A DNA stretch of 64,000 nt from Mariprofundus ferrinatatus (GCF_002795825.1 NZ_CP018800.1:310001-374000); one strand, 5' to 3'. Counted from the first letter of the stretch, positions 14,421 to 41,509 are shown. A program made the numbers and translations. The notes: a model not told the origin generated them from the letters alone.

Positions 14421-15788
14421 GTGTTAATGAATTCAGCTGAAAAAAGCAGTGTATTTTCCATTGCGGGCATCTATGGCCTGCGCATGCTCGGGCTGTTCCT
14501 TATTCTGCCGGTATTTGCGCTCTATGCCGAAGGGCTTGAAGGGGTAACACCTACCACCATCGGCCTGGCGCTCGGTATCTACGGTTTTACCATGGCGATG
14601 CTGCAGATTCCGTTTGGCTGGCTCTCCGATCGTATCGGCAGGAAACCGGTCATTGCAGGTGGCCTGCTGATCTTCGCGGTCGGCAGTGTGGTGGCTGCGA
14701 TGGCCGACTCGATCTGGATGGTCATTGTCGGGCGCGCCCTGCAGGGCTCCGGTGCGATTGCTGCGGCGATGATGGCACTGCTGGCCGACCTGACGCGTGA
14801 AGAGGTGCGCACCAAGGCGATGGCCGTAGTAGGCATGACGATCGGTTTCTCCTTTACCGTGGCGCTGATTGCCGGTCCTATGCTTAACAATTGGGTGGGT
14901 GTGGACGGCATTTTCTGGCTTACAGCCCTGTTTGCGCTGCTGGGCATTGCTGTGCTCTTCCTGCTGGTTCCCAATCCCGATCACCTCTCCATGCACTGTG
15001 ATGTCGAGGCGGTACCCGGTGAATTCGGTCGTATTCTGAAGGATGGGCAGCTGCTCAGGCTCGATTTCGGCATTATGATTCTGCACAGTATCATGATGGC
15101 GCTGTTTATCGCGCTTCCCTTTGTGTTGCGCGATCACCTGAGTATTGATGCTGTTGATCACCCGTGGGTTTATCTGCCGGTACTGCTGGTGGCGATCGTA
15201 TTTATGGTGCCGTTGATAATCATTGCCGAGAAGAAGGAGAAGATGAAGCAGGTATTCCTTCTCTGTATCAGCCTGATTACGGTTTCCTGCATCCTGCTCG
15301 GGCTCTGGCACGATTCGATGTTCTCTGTCATTGCAGCACTGCTGCTCTTCTTTATCGCTTACAATGTGCTGGAAGCTACACTGCCGTCCCTGATCTCGCG
15401 CATGGCACCGATCGATGCCAAGGGCACGGCCATGGGGGTCTACTCCACATCGCAGTTTTTCGGCGCTTTTATCGGCGGTGCGGTCGGTGGCTGGTTTTAT
15501 GGCCATTTTGATGTGCAGGGCGTTTTTTACGGCGCAGCCATGTTGGGATTGATCTGGCTGGTTGTTGCTGCCGGCATGAAGATGCCGGTGATGCGCTCGA
15601 CTGTCATGGCACATGTGGAATCTGATGTTGATGCTGAGCTGCTTGAGGCGGAAATCCTGAAACTTGCGGGTATTTTCGAGGCGAAGGTGGTGCCGGAAGA
15701 GAATGCGGTATTTCTGAGAGTGGATAAAAAACTTTTTGACCCGCATGCTTTGGATGTGCTGCTGAAGCCTGAAATGGCTGAATGTTGA
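14421..15788 (+). CDS. yajR: YajR-like MFS transporter with C-terminal YAM domain
   Basis: A twelve-helix major facilitator protein. Motif A is clear as GWLSDRIGRKPVI. The last 80 residues (ESDVDAELLEAEILKLAG onward) form a soluble ferredoxin-like domain matching the YAM domain of E. coli YajR, and the length of 455 is almost the same as YajR (454). The substrate is not established for this family. Starts at GTG 14421, or ATG 14427 with better spacing from GAGG. gpmI follows 12 bases later and is probably co-transcribed. Confidence 0.9.
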   Translation: MLMNSAEKSSVFSIAGIYGLRMLGLFLILPVFALYAEGLEGVTPTTIGLALGIYGFTMAMLQIPFGWLSDRIGRKPVIAGGLLIFAVGSVVAAMADSIWMVIVGRALQGSGAIAAAMMALLADLTREEVRTKAMAVVGMTIGFSFTVALIAGPMLNNWVGVDGIFWLTALFALLGIAVLFLLVPNPDHLSMHCDVEAVPGEFGRILKDGQLLRLDFGIMILHSIMMALFIALPFVLRDHLSIDAVDHPWVYLPVLLVAIVFMVPLIIIAEKKEKMKQVFLLCISLITVSCILLGLWHDSMFSVIAALLLFFIAYNVLEATLPSLISRMAPIDAKGTAMGVYSTSQFFGAFIGGAVGGWFYGHFDVQGVFYGAAMLGLIWLVVAAGMKMPVMRSTVMAHVESDVDAELLEAEILKLAGIFEAKVVPEENAVFLRVDKKLFDPHALDVLLKPEMAEC

Positions 15789-15800
15789 AGAGAGGTTGGT

Positions 15801-17429
15801 TTGAATAGTAACAGCGCAAAACCGGTACTGCTGATCGTTATGGACGGCTGGGGCATGGGCTCCGGCGGCCCCGAGGATGCAATTGCCCAATCCAGTACAC
15901 CTGTCTTCGACCGCCTCTGGTCCAGCTGTGCACATACCACGCTGATGACGCACGGACCATTTGTCGGTCTGCCTGCCAAGAAGGATATGGGCGGCTCCGA
16001 GGTGGGACACCTGACCATGGGCGCCGGAGAGATACTCGATCAGGGCCCCACCCGTATCAATAAAGCCATTGCCGACGGCTCCTTTTTCGACTCCGAGGCT
16101 TTGAAGCAGGTGATGGCAACGGGCGATGAAGGGGGCACGATCCACTTGATCGGGCTGCTTTCCGACGGCAATATCCACTCTCATCTCGACCACTTCCAGT
16201 CACTGATCAACCACGCCTTCGAGCGCGGCATCAAGTCACTGCGTGTACATGCGCTGTTTGACGGGCGCGATGTCGGTATCCAGACCGCCCAGAAATTTGT
16301 CTGCGAACTGGAAGAGGATTTCACCTTTATCAACAGCCATGAGGGCTTCAACTACCACTTCGCCAGCGGCGGCGGCAGGGAGCGGATTGTCATGGACCGC
16401 GACCGCGACTGGGCCAAGGTTGAGGAGGGGTGGAACCTGATGGTACACGGCAAGGGTCGTCACCACTTCCCTTCCATGATGGCAGCCATCAACCATTTCC
16501 GAAGCGAAAAGCCCGACCTGATCGATCAGGACATGGAGGGGTTTGTCGTCGTCGACGAAGCAGATCACCCGGTTGGCGCCATGCAGGACGGCGATGCTGT
16601 GGTGATGGTTAATTTCCGCGGCGACCGCGCCATCGAGATCACTGAAGCGTTCGAGCTTGTCGACTTTGACGGTTTTGACCGCGGCAACCGCCCTGATGTT
16701 CTCTATGCCGGCATGATGGTTTACGACGAGGATCGCAACCTGCCAAAGTTGCAGCTGATGGGGCCGACCAAGGTCGATAACCCGTTCGGGCGGCGTATCC
16801 TCAACCTCGGCATCAAGCAGTTCCGCCTGACCGAAACGCAGAAATATCCGCACGTTACCTTCTTTTTCAATGGCGGTTACCGCCAGCCGCTCGATCCTGC
16901 AATGGAGGATTACATCCTGATCCCCTCGGACAAGAAGGTCTCCTTTGCCGATGCGCCTGCCATGAAGGCGAACGAGATTGCAGACAAGGCTGTTGAACTG
17001 ATTGAGTCGGATCAGTACGGATTCGGGCTGATCAACTTTGCCAACGCCGACATGGTCGGACACTGCGGCATGATGGCGCCTGCCATCAAAGCGATTGAGA
17101 CCGTCGATGCTGCGGTAGGGCGTATCGTCGATGCCCTTGAAAAAGCGGGTGGAAAAGCCCTGATCACGGCCGATCACGGCAATGCCGAGGAGATGCTGGT
17201 GTTTGCCAAGGACGGGGCGCAAGAGGCCTCTACCAAGCACTCGATCAATCCGGTGCCATGCATCCTGTTCGATCCGACTTATGACGGTTCCTACAATCTG
17301 CGCCAGCCGGATGATGAGCAGACCATCGAGACAAAGCCCGGGCTTGCGCATCTGGCTGCAACCCTGTTCGAGATGATGGGTCAGCAGGTTCCGGATGATA
17401 TCTACCCCTCGCTAATTGTACGAAACTGA
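15801..17429 (+). CDS. gpmI: 2,3-bisphosphoglycerate-independent phosphoglycerate mutase
   Basis: Manganese enzyme interconverting 3- and 2-phosphoglycerate in glycolysis and gluconeogenesis. The alkaline-phosphatase-like metal site begins LLIVMDGWG, the phosphoserine loop is GGSEVGHLTMG (the usual text is GNSEVGH), and the C-terminal metal ligands are in ADHGNAEEM. It has 542 residues, slightly longer than the common 510-515. The start is TTG at 15801 with AGAGG five bases before. A hairpin after the stop probably terminates yajR-gpmI. Confidence 0.95.
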   Translation: MNSNSAKPVLLIVMDGWGMGSGGPEDAIAQSSTPVFDRLWSSCAHTTLMTHGPFVGLPAKKDMGGSEVGHLTMGAGEILDQGPTRINKAIADGSFFDSEALKQVMATGDEGGTIHLIGLLSDGNIHSHLDHFQSLINHAFERGIKSLRVHALFDGRDVGIQTAQKFVCELEEDFTFINSHEGFNYHFASGGGRERIVMDRDRDWAKVEEGWNLMVHGKGRHHFPSMMAAINHFRSEKPDLIDQDMEGFVVVDEADHPVGAMQDGDAVVMVNFRGDRAIEITEAFELVDFDGFDRGNRPDVLYAGMMVYDEDRNLPKLQLMGPTKVDNPFGRRILNLGIKQFRLTETQKYPHVTFFFNGGYRQPLDPAMEDYILIPSDKKVSFADAPAMKANEIADKAVELIESDQYGFGLINFANADMVGHCGMMAPAIKAIETVDAAVGRIVDALEKAGGKALITADHGNAEEMLVFAKDGAQEASTKHSINPVPCILFDPTYDGSYNLRQPDDEQTIETKPGLAHLAATLFEMMGQQVPDDIYPSLIVRN

Positions 17430-19146: not shown

Positions 19147-19175
19147 ATCATAGCCTGATTTGACGGCGGCTGCAA
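19147..19175 (-). promoter_or_regulatory. sigma70-type promoter of the periplasmic phosphatase gene
   Basis: Read on the minus strand, TTGCAG and TATGAT are separated by 17 bases, near-consensus spacing, about 38 bases upstream of the phosphatase ATG. Confidence 0.6.
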
Positions 19176-19196
19176 AAGGCGGCGTTTATTTTCCTC

Positions 19197-19526
19197 TCAG
19201 CGGAGGGGCTCTTTGGAGAAGATGGCGAGCCAGATGCTCTCGACATCGGGATCGGTCCAGCAGACACGGTGCCTGGTATGCGCAGGTATTAAGATGTGAT
19301 CCCCCGCAGAGATGGTCAGCACCTTGTCCTCAAACTGCAGGCGGGCGGAGCCGTGAAGCAACAGTACCCACTCATCCTCATCCTGATCGTACCAGAATCC
19401 TTCATCCGACCGGTGCCCTCTCGATACGATACGCTCGATGCGGAGGTTGCTGTTGTGAACAAGCAGCTCACTCAACTCTTCCGGAAGATCGGCCGGGATG
19501 GTTGAGAGTATATTGCCCTGTTTCAT
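19197..19526 (-). CDS. cupin-domain protein
   Basis: A 109-residue single-domain cupin. The two cupin motifs are recognisable around DEDEWVLLLHGSARLQFED and AGDHILIPAHTRHRVCW; the second keeps the P-x-x-x-x-H pattern of a metal-binding barrel. Small cupins of this size include metal-dependent isomerases, dioxygenases and sugar-binding proteins, so the substrate cannot be named. It starts three bases after the stop of the DUF2726 gene and the two are likely co-transcribed. Confidence 0.85.
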   Translation of the reverse strand: MKQGNILSTIPADLPEELSELLVHNSNLRIERIVSRGHRSDEGFWYDQDEDEWVLLLHGSARLQFEDKVLTISAGDHILIPAHTRHRVCWTDPDVESIWLAIFSKEPLR

Positions 19527-19529
19527 CGG

Positions 19530-20174
19530 TTATTCGTTGTAGAGTTCTACGCCGGAGCAGTTGCCGGGATAACCCGGGCATACCCAGAACAGGACCCCTT
19601 TATGAGGGCCGCTGCTGGCGCGTTTAAGGCTCATTGGCGACTGGCATTTGCTGCAAACGTGGAAAGCCTGCATCGATATCGTGGCCAGCATCTCATCCGG
19701 TGACGGGGACGGCGTTTCAAGGTGTGGCGCCAGAAGTTCGCTGATCTCCAGGAAGGAATAGCTGCTTTTTCGCGGTAGCCGGTAGAGCGGAAGTTCTGCA
19801 TCGGCAAGCGCCTTGTCGAGCACAGTTTCATCATGGTTTGTTGCAGATTTCAGCTGCACTACACAGGCAGGTTTACCGCTTTTTTTGCCGAACAGGACAA
19901 AATCCAGCCGCTGCCGGATATGTTCAGCGCCATCGAGAGCGAGTGCTGTCGGACTGACCTTGTTGCGGATATTGTACTCTCTGCCTGCTACCTGCTGCAG
20001 CGTCTGCAGGCAGCACTGCTCGACTATGCTCAGTTGAACCGGTGGTGGAGGCAGGGGTTGATCGCCGCGCGTTTTTTTTGTTTTGCCTCTGTTTATCACA
20101 ACAAGCGTCAGCACCAGCGCAACAGCCAACGTTAGCAGCATGACGGTCCAGGTTTGTGCATTCATTGTATTCAA
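19530..20174 (-). CDS. membrane-anchored DUF2726 protein with C4 zinc finger
   Basis: A 214-residue protein: a single N-terminal membrane helix (VMLLTLAVALVLTLVVI), a linker, a DUF2726 nuclease-like domain (residues about 45-150; note RLDFVLFGKKSGKPACVVQL), and a C-terminal zinc ribbon with CSKC and later CPGYPGNC, like the topoisomerase I C4 finger. DUF2726 is distantly related to restriction-endonuclease folds, so a nucleic-acid role is plausible but not shown. It lies just after polA on the same strand, eight bases from its stop, which supports a DNA-related job. Confidence 0.8.
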   Translation of the reverse strand: MNTMNAQTWTVMLLTLAVALVLTLVVINRGKTKKTRGDQPLPPPPVQLSIVEQCCLQTLQQVAGREYNIRNKVSPTALALDGAEHIRQRLDFVLFGKKSGKPACVVQLKSATNHDETVLDKALADAELPLYRLPRKSSYSFLEISELLAPHLETPSPSPDEMLATISMQAFHVCSKCQSPMSLKRASSGPHKGVLFWVCPGYPGNCSGVELYNE

Positions 20175-37186: not shown

Positions 37187-37912
37187 TTAATCCTTTTGCA
37201 TTCCGTTTTCGAGCCATGTTTTCATATCAGCTGCCGATTTGACACCCGATGCCATGCGCCCGTCACCGGCAATGAATGTCGGAGTGCCATTGATGTTCAG
37301 TCTTTGGGCAAGGGTCTGGATATCATCAATAGGGGTTTTGCATCTGGCAGCTTCTGGCACAAACCTCTCCAGCATCACCTTCTGCAGCATGCTGTGCTGC
37401 TCCTTGCTGCACCAGATCGCTTCTGATTTGGCTCGGGCATTCGGGTGAAGCTTCTCCAGCGGATAGAGGAAGGTATAGACGGCCACACCTTTCAGGTCGA
37501 CCAGCTCTTTCTCCAGTTTGCGGCAGTAGGGACAGTCAGGGTCGGTGAAAATGGCCAGTTTCAGCTTCGCACCCCTGTCGCCGGAGAGAATGGCCTTGTC
37601 CAGTGGCAGTTCACTCCAGTCGATGCGGTTGATCTGCTCCTTGCGCTCGCTGGTCAGGTTTTTTCCCGCCGCGGTATCGATAAGGCTTCCACCCAGTACA
37701 AAGTATTTTCCCTGGGCATCGGAGTAGAAGATGTTTCTGCCGCTGCGCACCTCGAACAGCCCCTCTATCTGGGTTTTGCGCACTTCATCCACACGCTCGA
37801 CATGCAGCAGTTCTGCTGATTTTTGAGCGATCGCGTGAATATCAGCATTGCCAGCGGCAGCCGAAGCGGCCGCAGGAACCAGAAAAGATATGAGTAAGAG
37901 AAACAGGCGCAT
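37187..37912 (-). CDS. dsbC: DsbC-like periplasmic disulfide isomerase
   Basis: A secreted thiol-disulfide protein. Signal peptide [20 protein letters not shown], then a small dimerisation domain, then a thioredoxin fold with the active site [11 protein letters not shown] (CPYC instead of the CGYC of E. coli DsbC) and a cis-Pro loop [10 protein letters not shown] second cysteine pair is present (WCSKEQ and RCK), as in DsbC. ATG 37912 follows GGAGG, giving 241 residues. It lies between the tlpA-like gene and rph on the same strand. Confidence 0.88.
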
Positions 37913-37951
37913 AAAACCTCCGCGGATTGAATGATATAGCATCATGATGGA

Positions 37952-38443
37952 TCAGTGGCCGCTGTGAAGGGGGGCGCTCTGCACCTCCGGGAGTAGAACT
38001 TCAAGCAGTTGATCGGAAAATTCACTGTTTTTCCAATCCCTGGGGCCACGGTGTATCTGGCTGATATCCCCATCGGCATTGATAACGATGGTGGTTGGGA
38101 GGGCCTGAGCCCCCAGCTTGCGTGCCTGAATCTCATCGCTGAGCAGGAGGGCTGTTTCAATGCCGGTCTCGTTGAGGAACTTTTCCGCATTCTCCGTTTT
38201 CTGATCAAGTGAGACAGAGAGGACCTTTATATCGGGGTGGTTGCTGACCCACTCGCTGTAAGCAGGCATTTCGGCGCGGCACGATGGACACCATGAGGCC
38301 CAGAAATGAACCAGAACAGGTTCACCCTTTAGCTCATCAAGCGAATAGGTGGTGCCACTTTCATCCATCCATTTGAAATCGGCAGCATGGGCTGGCACCC
38401 ATGAGAACAGCACCAGCATCAGTGCCGCAAACCAGCGAATCAT
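37952..38443 (-). CDS. TlpA/ResA-like periplasmic thioredoxin
   Basis: A membrane-anchored or secreted thioredoxin of the TlpA/ResA group. The hydrophobic N-terminus (ALMLVLFSWVPAHA) leads into a redoxin domain with WASWCPSCRAEMP (active site WCPSC) and ALPTTIVINADG as cis-Pro loop. Such proteins keep haem- or copper-site cysteines reduced. ATG 38443 is chosen because AGGAG has correct spacing there, whereas ATG 38449 abuts it. It is divergent from the copper-type cluster that begins at 38524; TlpA proteins are known partners of PCu(A)C chaperones in CuA-site assembly. Confidence 0.87.
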   Translation of the reverse strand: MIRWFAALMLVLFSWVPAHAADFKWMDESGTTYSLDELKGEPVLVHFWASWCPSCRAEMPAYSEWVSNHPDIKVLSVSLDQKTENAEKFLNETGIETALLLSDEIQARKLGAQALPTTIVINADGDISQIHRGPRDWKNSEFSDQLLEVLLPEVQSAPLHSGH

Positions 38444-38523
38444 ACTCATCTCCTACCCGGCACCTTCAGCCGGAAGAACCGGAATCTTGCAGATAATGGC
38501 ATGGCACGCCATCATTCCGCGCC

Positions 38524-38922
38524 ATGCGAAAAGTACTTGCTATATTCCTTGCTGCAACATTGCTGTGCGTAAGCTCTGTTCCGGCATTTGCGGAAGCGGC
38601 AAGTTGTGCCGGCCCGGAGGTCGCTGCCATAACTGCGGGCGGTGAACATGCCATGCATCACGATGACGGGCTTGATGAGGCCCATCTTGGGCATGATCAC
38701 TCTGCAGGACTCTCGGCAGACTGGCAGAAGGACCGTATCGAGTGCGGCTGCGGATGTCATCGTAGTGTCGATGCTTTGCCCCATTTGCTGGCGCCACATA
38801 CCTTTACTTCAATAAACCTTGAAACCGGGGTCGAGTCCCGTGAGGCTCCATTCAGGCTTGAAGTTGCACTTGTCTGCAGTACTCCGCGTATTCCCATTCC
38901 GCCTCCACAATCTATTTCCTGA
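38524..38922 (+). CDS. secreted His/Cys-rich protein of unknown function
   Basis: A 132-residue exported protein: signal peptide MRKVLAIFLAATLLCVSSVP ending near AFAEA, then a stretch dense in possible metal ligands (GGEHAMHHDD, HLGHDHSAG, ECGCGCHRSVDALPHLLAPH). The tail is RIPIPPPQ; such Arg/Pro endings recall small exported proteins found beside heavy-metal efflux genes, but I cannot assign a family. It begins a plus-strand run with a Met-rich outer-membrane protein, a PCu(A)C chaperone and a lipoprotein, so a metal (copper) role is inferred from context and composition only. Confidence 0.75.
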   Translation: MRKVLAIFLAATLLCVSSVPAFAEAASCAGPEVAAITAGGEHAMHHDDGLDEAHLGHDHSAGLSADWQKDRIECGCGCHRSVDALPHLLAPHTFTSINLETGVESREAPFRLEVALVCSTPRIPIPPPQSIS

Positions 38923-39032
38923 TTTTCTAAAACCCGGATGCCGTCCTCAGGATGGCCCGTTTGCGCGTGCTGTCGGGCAGTTATGCCTGTTCGCCTGCGC
39001 TGTTAATCATTAAATATATTCTGGAGAAGAAC

Positions 39033-40130
39033 ATGAAATTCGTAAAATCTCTGGCCATCGCGAGTGCGCTGGCTCTATCAACTATTTCTGCCGGACAGCA
39101 GGCTTATGCCAGCGAGTGCGGCCTCTCATGCTGTATCGCCGCAGGCGTTGACGGTATCGGTTCGGCAACCGGCCTGACTGTATCCCTGCAGTACGACACC
39201 ATGCTGATGAAAACCAACAAGCGGGGCACCAACGAAATCACCCCTCAGCAGATTATCAGTAATCAATTGGCTGGCACTGCAGGCATGTATGCGGTATCGA
39301 ACAGCATGACCATGCAGAAGATTGCTGCCAACTTCGCCTACCGCATGGATGAGGACAACGCCTTCGTGCTGACCGTTCCCTATATCATCAACGATATGGA
39401 GATGATGATGGGCATGAAGATGATGCCGATGTCTCCCATCGTATATTCCCTCAACAACATGGATACGATCGAGGGTCTTGGCGATATCTCGCTGCTCTAT
39501 CTGCGCGATGTCTACAAGGATGCCGATATCCGTACACGTCAGCGCTTCTCGGTCGGTGTAGGCATTAAAGCACCAACAGGCGCCTCCAAAGCGCGTACTC
39601 GAAGCGGCCACCTGGTTCATATGATGATGCAGGCGGGTACCGGTTCCTGGGACGGGCTCTTGATCGCAAATGGCACCATGGCTTTCGGCGAACATGAGGA
39701 TGGTGGTGCCCAGTGGCTTGTTTCCCCATCTGCAACCTATCACATGACCACCCGTAACTCGCTCGGCTATAAGGTTGGCGACCGTCTTAATGTCGACCTC
39801 TCTACCCGCTACCGTGTTACCTCCAAGTTCAATGTGAAGCTTGACCTGAATGGCGTCTACTCTCAGAAGGATAGTACCGATGGCACCAAAGATCCGAACT
39901 TTCTCAATAATATGATGGTACCTGCAGCCTATCAGCGGACCGTCAATGTGCTTGATAATGTGAATAATACCGGTCTGGCTTCTCTCTTTGTTTCACCGGG
40001 ATTCCAGTGGATTGTTGCTGATGGCGTAACCCTGAGTGGTGAATACCGTATTCCGGTTTATCAGGACGTAAGGGGTATTCAGCAGGTGACCGATAACTGG
40101 TTCTTCCTGCGTGCGACTGCAGCATTCTGA
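39033..40130 (+). CDS. outer-membrane beta-barrel-like protein, Met-rich
   Basis: A 365-residue exported protein. Signal peptide MKFVKSLAIASALALSTISA ends near QAYA. The mature start is Cys-rich (ECGLSCCIAAGVDG). Alternating hydrophobic strands (FSVGVGIKAPTG, VTLSGEYRIPVY) and the terminal aromatic FLRATAAF match a beta barrel. A loop MEMMMGMKMMPMSP at about residues 130-143 offers seven Met in fourteen residues, typical of copper(I)-binding sites. The frame is open upstream, but ATG 39033 follows GGAGAA. No named family recognised. Confidence 0.8.
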   Translation: MKFVKSLAIASALALSTISAGQQAYASECGLSCCIAAGVDGIGSATGLTVSLQYDTMLMKTNKRGTNEITPQQIISNQLAGTAGMYAVSNSMTMQKIAANFAYRMDEDNAFVLTVPYIINDMEMMMGMKMMPMSPIVYSLNNMDTIEGLGDISLLYLRDVYKDADIRTRQRFSVGVGIKAPTGASKARTRSGHLVHMMMQAGTGSWDGLLIANGTMAFGEHEDGGAQWLVSPSATYHMTTRNSLGYKVGDRLNVDLSTRYRVTSKFNVKLDLNGVYSQKDSTDGTKDPNFLNNMMVPAAYQRTVNVLDNVNNTGLASLFVSPGFQWIVADGVTLSGEYRIPVYQDVRGIQQVTDNWFFLRATAAF

Positions 40131-40184
40131 TTGGGAGGGCAGGCCGGAGTGAGGCTGTGTATCAGTCCGTGCGCTGCCTGCATC

Positions 40185-40207
40185 ATGGCGCGTAAAGTGC
40201 GCGCCAT
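40185..40207. terminator. hairpin after the outer-membrane gene
   Basis: ATGGCGCG and CGCGCCAT form a perfect eight-pair stem around a seven-base loop, followed by ATAAAA. It could terminate or protect the upstream mRNA; the lack of a T-run makes the first role uncertain. Confidence 0.45.
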
Positions 40208-40221
40208 ATAAAAGTTGAGAA

Positions 40222-40248
40222 AGTGGGGTAGTGTTTCACTGCCCCACT
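40222..40248 (+). promoter_or_regulatory. leader hairpin of the PCu(A)C gene
   Basis: AGTGGGGTAGTG and CACTGCCCCACT form a 12-pair stem with one G-T pair around TTT, 23 bases before the chaperone ATG. With no T-tract after it, it is a leader hairpin rather than a clear terminator. Confidence 0.5.
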
Positions 40249-40271
40249 ATTCCAGAGAAATGAGGATGACT

Positions 40272-40745
40272 ATGAAAGTTAAAGTTTTACTGCTTGCAGC
40301 ACTGATGTTGCTGATGCCATCGCTGGCCGCAGCTGAGATAACTGTTGAAGATGCCTGGGTTCGCATGCCGCCACCTGTTGCTGATACGGCTGCTGGCTAT
40401 CTCACCCTGAAAAACAGTGGTGACCACGATGTCGAGGTTGTCTCCGTGGAGAGCGATGCCGCGACCAAGCCCGAGTTTCACAGCATGTCGATGCATGACG
40501 GCATGATGCATATGATGAAAATGGACAAGGTGATCATCCCTGCCCATGGCGAACTGAAATTCGAGTCGGGAGGCAATCACCTGATGTTAACAGGCCTGGC
40601 TCGCCCCCTGAATGCCGGTGATCATGTGATGCTGACTATCAAAACCGCAGATGGCGGCTCGGTGATGGTTCATGCAGAGGTTCGTGATGTACGCATGAAG
40701 GATTCGAATGATAGCGATCACGGAGGCCACCATCACGGCCACTGA
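40272..40745 (+). CDS. PCu(A)C-type copper chaperone
   Basis: A 157-residue periplasmic copper(I) chaperone, a family that delivers copper to the CuA site of cytochrome oxidase or buffers copper. After a signal peptide (MKVKVLLLAALMLLMPSLAA) the family motif HX10MX21HXM is exact: H70, M81, H103, M105. Many further Met and His lie at 72-84 (MSMHDGMMHMMKM), and the C-terminus is a His tail (DHGGHHHGH). The frame opens at 40215, but the third of three nearby ATGs, at 40272, has GAGG at the best spacing. It is enclosed by hairpins, so it is probably transcribed alone or controlled separately. Confidence 0.93.
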   Translation: MKVKVLLLAALMLLMPSLAAAEITVEDAWVRMPPPVADTAAGYLTLKNSGDHDVEVVSVESDAATKPEFHSMSMHDGMMHMMKMDKVIIPAHGELKFESGGNHLMLTGLARPLNAGDHVMLTIKTADGGSVMVHAEVRDVRMKDSNDSDHGGHHHGH

Positions 40746-40753
40746 TTGATTTT

Positions 40754-40771
40754 ATCCGCCTGAAGGCGGAT
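40754..40771. repeat. small hairpin after the PCu(A)C gene
   Basis: ATCCGCC TGAA GGCGGAT, a perfect seven-pair stem with a tetraloop, ten bases after the stop codon. It is followed by a larger terminator. Confidence 0.5.
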
Positions 40772-40784
40772 GCGTATTGAGTGG

Positions 40785-40829
40785 ATGGCGGAGATTACGA
40801 TTTGATGTAATCTCCGCCATATCTTTTTT
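40785..40829 (+). terminator. strong rho-independent terminator
   Basis: ATGGCGGAGATTAC and GTAATCTCCGCCAT form a perfect 14-pair stem around an eight-base loop, followed by ATCTTTTTTC. It separates the chaperone gene from the lipoprotein gene. Confidence 0.88.
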
Positions 40830-40858
40830 CAGGTCATGATAAGTATATGGAGGGCAAA

Positions 40859-41509
40859 ATGAGACTGCTTTATTCGCTTATGATCGCCCTTTGCCTGTCC
40901 GCCCTGAGCGCCTGCGATATTGATCGCCATGAAATGCATGACGCGCGCCAGAACCTCTCCCAGACCATTAAGCTGCATCACCTGCATATGCTGATTAACC
41001 ACTCCCTGCAGATGGCAACACAGGGGGCGGATATGAACCTGCAGGGGATAGAACATGGTCCCGCCATGCTGGTGAAAGCATCCGGGCTGCTAGAGCGTGC
41101 CATGACAGGCCCTGAAATGGCGAGTATGCATAAATTTGGCGGCGCTACGGCGCCGCTAATGAAAATGACCCATGAGCTTGCAGCCAGAGCAACTACGCTG
41201 ATTGAAGCCATGAAGAAGCTCTCTACCCTGAGCGGGGATAAGGGGGCGATCCGGATGCTCAACCATGCCGTCGAGGTGGCGGCAACCGGCAGCAGCCTGA
41301 TTATGCTGGGTCAGCAGGGAATGGCTGGCGATATTGATGCTGTAATGGTCAACCACGGGCAGATGATGCTGGGGGAAGCATCAGGTCTGCTGCGCGATAT
41401 TTCAGGCGCTGATGAATATCGGAGTCTTGTTGCTGATGTGGTGAATATGCTGATCGGTATACCGGACATGCCTGTCGACCAGGGTGAAAGTCAGCCCCAA
41501 GGCGGCTGA
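40859..41509 (+). CDS. Met/His-rich lipoprotein of unknown function
   Basis: A 216-residue protein with a lipoprotein signal (MRLLYSLMIALCLSALSAC); the Cys after LSA would be lipidated. The mature protein is all-helical in character and rich in Met and His (HEMHDARQ, IKLHHLHMLINHSLQMATQG, GPEMASMHKFGG), with two partly similar helical halves, each carrying HG or NHG followed by a Met and a SGLL motif (HGPAMLVKASGLLE and NHGQMMLGEASGLLR). No family recognised. A metal-binding envelope role is suggested by composition and by the PCu(A)C gene upstream. GGAGGG precedes ATG 40859. Confidence 0.75.
   Translation: MRLLYSLMIALCLSALSACDIDRHEMHDARQNLSQTIKLHHLHMLINHSLQMATQGADMNLQGIEHGPAMLVKASGLLERAMTGPEMASMHKFGGATAPLMKMTHELAARATTLIEAMKKLSTLSGDKGAIRMLNHAVEVAATGSSLIMLGQQGMAGDIDAVMVNHGQMMLGEASGLLRDISGADEYRSLVADVVNMLIGIPDMPVDQGESQPQGG

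Follow-up and report, generated by a model that had tools for sequence, protein, structure and literature searches.

Two exported leaders that head copper operons in other bacteria are the closest described counterparts of the gene cluster analyzed here. CruR is the product of a short exported open reading frame (ORF) at the head of the operon cruR-crtA(bfrG)-bp2921 of Bordetella pertussis (PMC9426467, PMC12914433); in CruR and other DUF2946 proteins the CXXC and RAPP motifs are 45 residues apart, a distance conserved to one or two residues, and altered spacing disturbs regulation (PMC9426467). This regulation involves Rho termination, and the next gene codes for an outer-membrane (OM) copper importer serving haem-copper oxidases, with PCuAC/ScoI in some operons. 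CutF, from cutFOG of Rhodobacter capsulatus (PMC9973294, PMC8456105), is an exported leader with a CxxxC copper motif and a C-terminal PPPRL, followed by a 40-nt intergenic stem-loop that shields the Shine-Dalgarno sequence (SD) of the next gene; there, copper turns on a multicopper oxidase. CutF reportedly acts in cis only and escapes detection as a mature protein (PMC9973294). A direct demonstration of translation arrest by CruR and CutF was lacking as of PMC10987492, and bacterial copper-acquisition pathways are still poorly characterised (PMC12914433). Here we analyze a stretch of 64,000 nt (the window; NZ_CP018800.1:310001-374000, our G000:C1:310001-374000) from the 2.30 Mb, single-contig genome of Mariprofundus ferrinatatus (G000), whose relatives include Mariprofundus sp. 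KV, M. micogutta and M. erugo. The window contains the cluster P1-P2-PCuAC-P4, and its first gene, P1, probably encodes a regulatory leader of the CruR/CutF type, with copper binding and ribosome pausing proposed by analogy.

Results

P1 proteins keep a fixed distance between a cysteine motif and a proline tract

The P1 profile matched 42 of 78 genomes and 16 of 18 genera, and the family is spread over the class Zetaproteobacteria. Thirty-eight P1 loci were read, with neighbors counted within 8 kb and several of the contigs cut, and in all 38 the gene directly after P1 was an outer-membrane or outer-envelope gene: P2 (13 loci), a distant P2 homolog with a CCxKCGG motif (18), a TonB receptor (three), or a large lipoprotein ahead of a CCGG protein (four). 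Residues E73, C74, G75 and C76 were invariant among 15 aligned P1 proteins, and the only strict features of the family are ECGC and a C-terminal PPP, with a PHLLAPH-like stretch between them and little else. Although the proteins range from 119 to 215 aa, 36 of the 38 have exactly 55 residues from the first Cys of ECGC (or ECAC) to the last Pro of PPP; the remaining two, which carry ECC variants, have 53–54. Most tails end in PPPQ, PPPR or PPPK, with 2–5 residues beyond PPP; among the 340 ORFs of at least 100 aa from the window and 20 neighbor loci, a PPP inside the last eight residues occurs in P1 only.

This arrangement resembles CruR, likewise a short exported ORF heading a copper operon, in which the spacing between a Cys motif and a C-terminal Pro motif is also fixed, and 12 independently found DUF2946 proteins gave spacings of 51–55 residues when measured as in P1. 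The exported leader, copper motif and PPP-type tail described for CutF follow the same design, although CxxxC is absent from P1, which has ECGC instead. The first-pass annotation, made from the sequence alone, had described P1 as a secreted His/Cys-rich protein; the composition was borne out (6.8% His, 4.5% Cys), but the protein looks like a regulatory leader and not like a secreted metal-binding effector. Both leader types occur in the class, as locus L167 (genome G053) encodes a canonical DUF2946/CruR leader, with CNLC and RAPP, in one Zetaproteobacterium. The main text of PMC9973294 mentions neither Zetaproteobacteria nor Mariprofundus, and P1-like proteins may sit in its supplementary clusters.

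The proline codons of P1 covary with the Shine-Dalgarno sequence of the next gene

In the predicted fold of the window RNA, the PPP codons of P1 (CCG CCU CCA) pair with the SD of P2 (UGGAG), and the same pairing is present in the folds of loci L084, L087 and L089; the hairpin between P1 and P2 shows compensatory changes in relatives. When loci were folded individually, the SD was closed by the PPP codons in 26 of 35. Codon choice follows this pairing: CCT, which makes up 20% of the Pro codons in neighboring genes, fills the middle position in 31 of 37 loci, whereas the third codon varies together with the SD, CCA accompanying UGGAG in 14 of 16 cases and CCU accompanying AGGAG in 11 of 14. Comparing the wobble base of the third codon with the base before GGAG gave 14 A:U, 11 U:A and three A:A or U:U combinations (Fisher test, 5e-5), a value that, like the other codon p-values, ignores relatedness. 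Genome composition fails to explain this covariation, because the SDs of other genes in P1 loci show the opposite trend. Additionally, the two covarying sites need 12 and 10 changes on the P1 tree and, therefore, the match between codon and SD arose repeatedly.

As described for CutF, P1 loci have an RNA structure, here predicted and covarying, that masks the SD of the following gene; the intergenic gaps of P1 loci, however, are mostly 78–143 nt and lead to OM genes. Since the PPP codons themselves look like an anti-SD, which also differs from the Rho termination of CruR, a ribosome paused on them should expose the SD. This codon design was not clearly seen in the canonical DUF2946 genes checked, for which the starts of the next genes are rough.

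P2 is a predicted outer-membrane barrel with conserved methionines facing the lumen

The AlphaFold model of P2 is a beta-barrel that matches the whole barrel of the COG4313 channel 4rl8 (VIA Z 21.6, root-mean-square deviation 3.0 over 250 residues, 12% identity) as well as FapF (Foldseek, 1.7e-12) and, with a lower score, PcoB (VIA Z 14.6). P2 had been annotated as a Met-rich, outer-membrane-like protein without a family: it is indeed Met-rich and lacks a recognizable sequence family, but its fold can be recognized as a COG4313-type barrel. P2 differs from the COG4313 channel and FapF in its low identity, in having no Pfam match, in its invariant lumen Met residues, and in a CxxxCC motif at the mature N-terminus. 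The pairs M57/M59, M92/M94 and M122/M124 occupy alternate residues on strands 1, 2 and 3, respectively, and face the lumen by residue parity, a reading that is clear for strand 1, was made by eye for strands 2 and 3, and used no atomic coordinates. From the order of the strands, these six residues probably lie in the extracellular halves; together with M143, they show little or no variation across P2 and the distant P2 homologs (ca. 24% identity). In the model, this pattern favors a Met-lined path for Cu(I) through P2, and we lean slightly toward P2 being a channel that would transport copper.

The cluster is conserved among copper-linked genes

The order TlpA/DsbC, divergent from P1-P2-PCuAC-P4-ftsY, recurs in six relatives (G011, G015, G001, G020, G016, and G019), all of which have one additional gene between P2 and PCuAC. 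This gene is a Tat-exported homolog of the copper storage protein Csp1 (phmmer, L084 copy against 5fjd, 2e-17). The window cluster lacks Csp1, but a homolog 56% identical to the L084 copy was found with a protein query elsewhere in the genome (G000:C1:1534648-1535121), where the PF03860 (DUF326) profile missed it, adjoining a RegB/RegA-like pair in which both members score below curated cut-offs. A Tat-exported Csp1-like gene beside a RegB/RegA-like two-component pair was observed in L118 (4303-7239, from G000), L120 and L124; in L124 a TonB receptor is close by as well.

In many Zetaproteobacteria, the slot delimited by TlpA/DsbC and ftsY is occupied by a P1-headed cassette. Within 8 kb of P1, the 38 loci included PCuAC (15 loci), Csp (11), SCO1 (five), a short cytochrome c (18) and a second TlpA (15). 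In M. erugo, P2 adjoins a TonB-dependent copper receptor well above cut-off, along with TonB and a RegB-like kinase; the protein beside P2 in L101 matches the TonB copper receptor model TIGR01778 with 767 bits (cut-off, 472), whereas the TonB receptors directly after P1 in G046 and G049 fall below that cut-off. CopA and DUF411 genes lie 6.7–7.2 kb from P1 in G012, SCO1-PCuAC occupy the TlpA/DsbC-ftsY slot in G003 and G009, and the aa3 oxidase operon of G023 ends in PCuAC, after SCO1. M. ferrinatatus itself carries COX2 and SCO1 within an aa3 operon, in agreement with the presence of aa3 in place of cbb3 reported for strains CP-5 and CP-8 (PMC5513912). In relatives, the system thus extends beyond the four genes to Csp1, SCO1, RegBA and TonB copper receptors. 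These neighbors in other Zetaproteobacteria, including CopA, support a role in copper handling, and copper is with high probability the metal of the cluster.

The window cluster shares the exact PCuAC motif, an adjacent TlpA, and a SCO1 gene in the aa3 operon with the PCuAC-TlpA-SCO assembly of oxidase copper sites (reviewed in PMC6696091), and differs in adding an OM component and a leader. The PCu(A)C chaperone identified in the first-pass annotation was validated by a PF04314 match above cut-off (5.4e-35) and by the motif H-x10-M-x21-H-x-M at residues 70–105; P1, P2 and P4 are all kept beside PCuAC genes elsewhere, so that the lack of conservation named in advance as grounds for rejecting the annotation was not seen.

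Loci L122 and L123, from genomes without COX2, have SCO1-PCuAC at the chromosomal slot of the window cluster. An alternative cassette after P1 (L135, 8057-11350; L136, L137, and L142) comprises a large lipoprotein, a CCGG-motif protein without family and a redoxin-like lipoprotein, in some cases also with a short cytochrome c or Csp. A cytochrome c of ca. 90 aa with one CxxCH lies between the distant P2 and a TlpA-like gene in L097 (1712-1981) and, similarly, in many Zetaproteobacteria.

P4, transcription and other features of the window

Four consecutive plus-strand genes had been proposed for this position, and all four ORFs were found, with correct coordinates (Table 1). Searches of P1, P2 and P4 against Pfam and NCBIfam gave no significant family, as anticipated for these three proteins, and neither did sequence searches of PDB. 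The metal-ligand-rich composition noticed at the outset also holds, since the Met-richest of the 57 non-overlapping ORFs of at least 100 aa in the window are PCuAC (9.7%), P4 (9.5%) and P2 (5.9%; median 2.4%). TlpA and DsbC lie on the opposite strand as described, with TlpA starting 74 nt from P1.

TABLE 1. Features of the P1-P2-PCuAC-P4 cluster and adjacent genes (positions in the window).
Feature	Position	Strand	Description
DsbC-like disulfide isomerase	37187-37945	-	After TlpA
TlpA-like thiol oxidoreductase	37952-38449	-	Divergent from P1
P1	38524-38922	+	132 aa; N-terminal hydrophobic signal, ECGCGC motif (C74, C76, C78), C-terminal PPP (126-128); proposed nascent-chain copper sensor
ECGCGC codons (P1)	38740-38757	+	Proposed copper-binding motif, from sequence and alignment
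P1 PPP codons CCG CCT CCA	38899-38907	+	Proposed pause site; RNA CUCCA (38903-38907) as anti-Shine-Dalgarno
P1-P2 intergenic leader RNA	38923-39032	+	Structured, z -3.5
P2 Shine-Dalgarno UGGAG	39022-39026	+	Predicted partner of PPP codons
P2	39033-40130	+	ORF open from 38952, supported start 39033; outer-membrane beta-barrel, proposed copper channel
PCuAC	40272-40745	+	PF04314 copper chaperone, H-x10-M-x21-H-x-M, His-rich tail
Intrinsic-terminator-like hairpin with T run	40785-40830	+	Between PCuAC and P4
P4	40847/40859-41509	+	Lipoprotein (LSAC), Met/His-rich, predicted helical bundle resembling PhoU
ftsY	from 41537		Next after P4

P4 was correctly described as a Met/His-rich lipoprotein, having a lipoprotein signal (LSAC). 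Its model is a helical bundle (predicted local distance difference test, pLDDT, 80) resembling PhoU with a VIA Z of 14.5, a score close to what helical bundles commonly give, and a best Foldseek E value of 0.13; the family recurs near ftsY in other genomes and P4 may hold copper. Most of the weak P4 homologs in G006, G008, G010, G014 and G029 were fragmentary or lay out of frame, and the set was left unused apart from one read in G006. The hairpin separating P4 from PCuAC is strong and resembles an intrinsic terminator and, therefore, the four genes need not share one transcript. Our results support the annotation of an envelope system that handles copper and includes PCuAC and TlpA, but P1 is now read differently and a single four-gene unit is doubtful.

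Elsewhere in the window, the gap between P2 and PCuAC (40130-40271), which is the position of Csp1 in relatives, has a strongly structured RNA (z -6). Open frames at 14433-16193 (-) and 19160-19627 (+) have unusually high contents of His (8.7%) and Cys (7.1%), and may be shadow frames and not genes.

Discussion

We read the gene order, motif spacing, RNA pairing with its covariation, lumen-facing Met residues and copper-linked neighbors found by computation as probably reflecting a cassette for copper acquisition and delivery in haem-copper oxidase biogenesis, with a copper switch built into its first gene. In this proposal, P1 would be translated and exported, and copper at ECGCGC, 55 residues before PPP, would alter the length of a ribosome pause on PPP. 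A ribosome standing there would cover the anti-SD and free the SD of P2; once it moved on, the RNA would close and P2 would be off, perhaps with an added termination step like that of CruR. The P2 barrel would admit copper through its Met-lined lumen, TlpA would keep PCuAC functional, and PCuAC would pass Cu(I) to the oxidase, to the CuA site of aa3 in this organism; P4, plus Csp1 in relatives, would retain copper within the envelope. The CruR analogy and the acquisition-type partners lead us to favor, with some reserve, expression of the OM gene at low copper; CutF, which activates on copper (PMC9973294), shows that the switch could also run the other way.

The N-terminal signal, and the His/Cys-rich middle of P1 in Mariprofundus, would also suit an ordinary secreted periplasmic carrier handing copper between the OM protein and PCuAC. 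We consider this unlikely, because other P1 proteins (for example, those of L097 and L094) have a variable His-rich part or lack it while keeping ECGC, PPP and their spacing, and because the codon-level selection and the covariation with the next SD act on RNA and not on protein. Less improbable, but still not favored, is a copper-resistance cassette, induced by copper as in CutF-CutO and with P2 as a PcoB-like barrel for efflux or sequestration: CutF, with its PPPRL tail, activates on copper (PMC9973294, PMC8456105), P1 tails such as PPPRV are similar, PcoB is among the barrel matches of P2, and CopA is nearby in one genome. Nevertheless, the PcoB match is far below that to COG4313, the genes that recur alongside the cassette serve acquisition and assembly (TonB copper receptor, PCuAC, SCO1, TlpA and short cytochrome c), and no multicopper oxidase or RND (resistance-nodulation-division) efflux gene was recognized in the flanks read, which are partly annotated. 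That the cargo is another metal (iron, manganese or zinc), the hosts being iron oxidizers, seems very improbable to us. P2 has distant homologs, weak matches only, annotated as "transporter" on plasmids of Candidatus Manganitrophus, and the TonB receptors of G046 and G049 are under the copper cut-off, but the Met-rich lumen, PCuAC, Csp1 and SCO1 are all of copper type.

Several results weigh against a CruR/CutF-like copper switch preceding a copper channel. PF11162 (DUF2946) does not match P1, a profile-profile comparison was non-significant, and the CXXC and RAPP motifs of DUF2946/CruR are absent from P1, which has ECGC(GC) and PPP instead; because both the profile and the motifs were tested and not found, we keep P1 out of DUF2946, although it would work like that family. 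The excess of pairing over shuffled sequences is modest in most loci, since the PPP codons and the SD are complementary by themselves, and shuffling the middle lowers pairing only moderately. The alifold consensus, which has the helix in seven of seven sequences and also in nine (a pair being broken in one of these), used the SD as its anchor and hence leans toward this helix; when the intergenic RNA was aligned with MAFFT without an anchor, the SD fell out of register and no long-range pair appeared. No copper transporter of known structure is related to P2 in sequence, and the P2 model is of moderate quality (pLDDT 67). Finally, within the genus the genomes that have COX2 and those that have the full cluster are the same seven, but these form one clade in the P1 tree, so the match is not independent; we count it once and set it aside as independent evidence.

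The odds are about even, in our judgment, that nascent leaders sensing copper include a second sequence family, represented by P1 and distributed across Zetaproteobacteria, in which the same nine nucleotides would serve as Pro-pause codons and as anti-SD of the next gene, driving exchangeable OM components that include a non-TonB, Met-lined copper channel; the OM partner of P1 is usually a non-TonB barrel, unlike that of CruR. The family offers many natural variants sharing one 55-residue ruler and a compact RNA switch, and the mechanism is directly testable, as synonymous codon changes separate protein from RNA effects. The cassettes also provide candidate OM copper importers other than TonB receptors, and a candidate route by which the oxidases of marine iron oxidizers would be supplied with copper.

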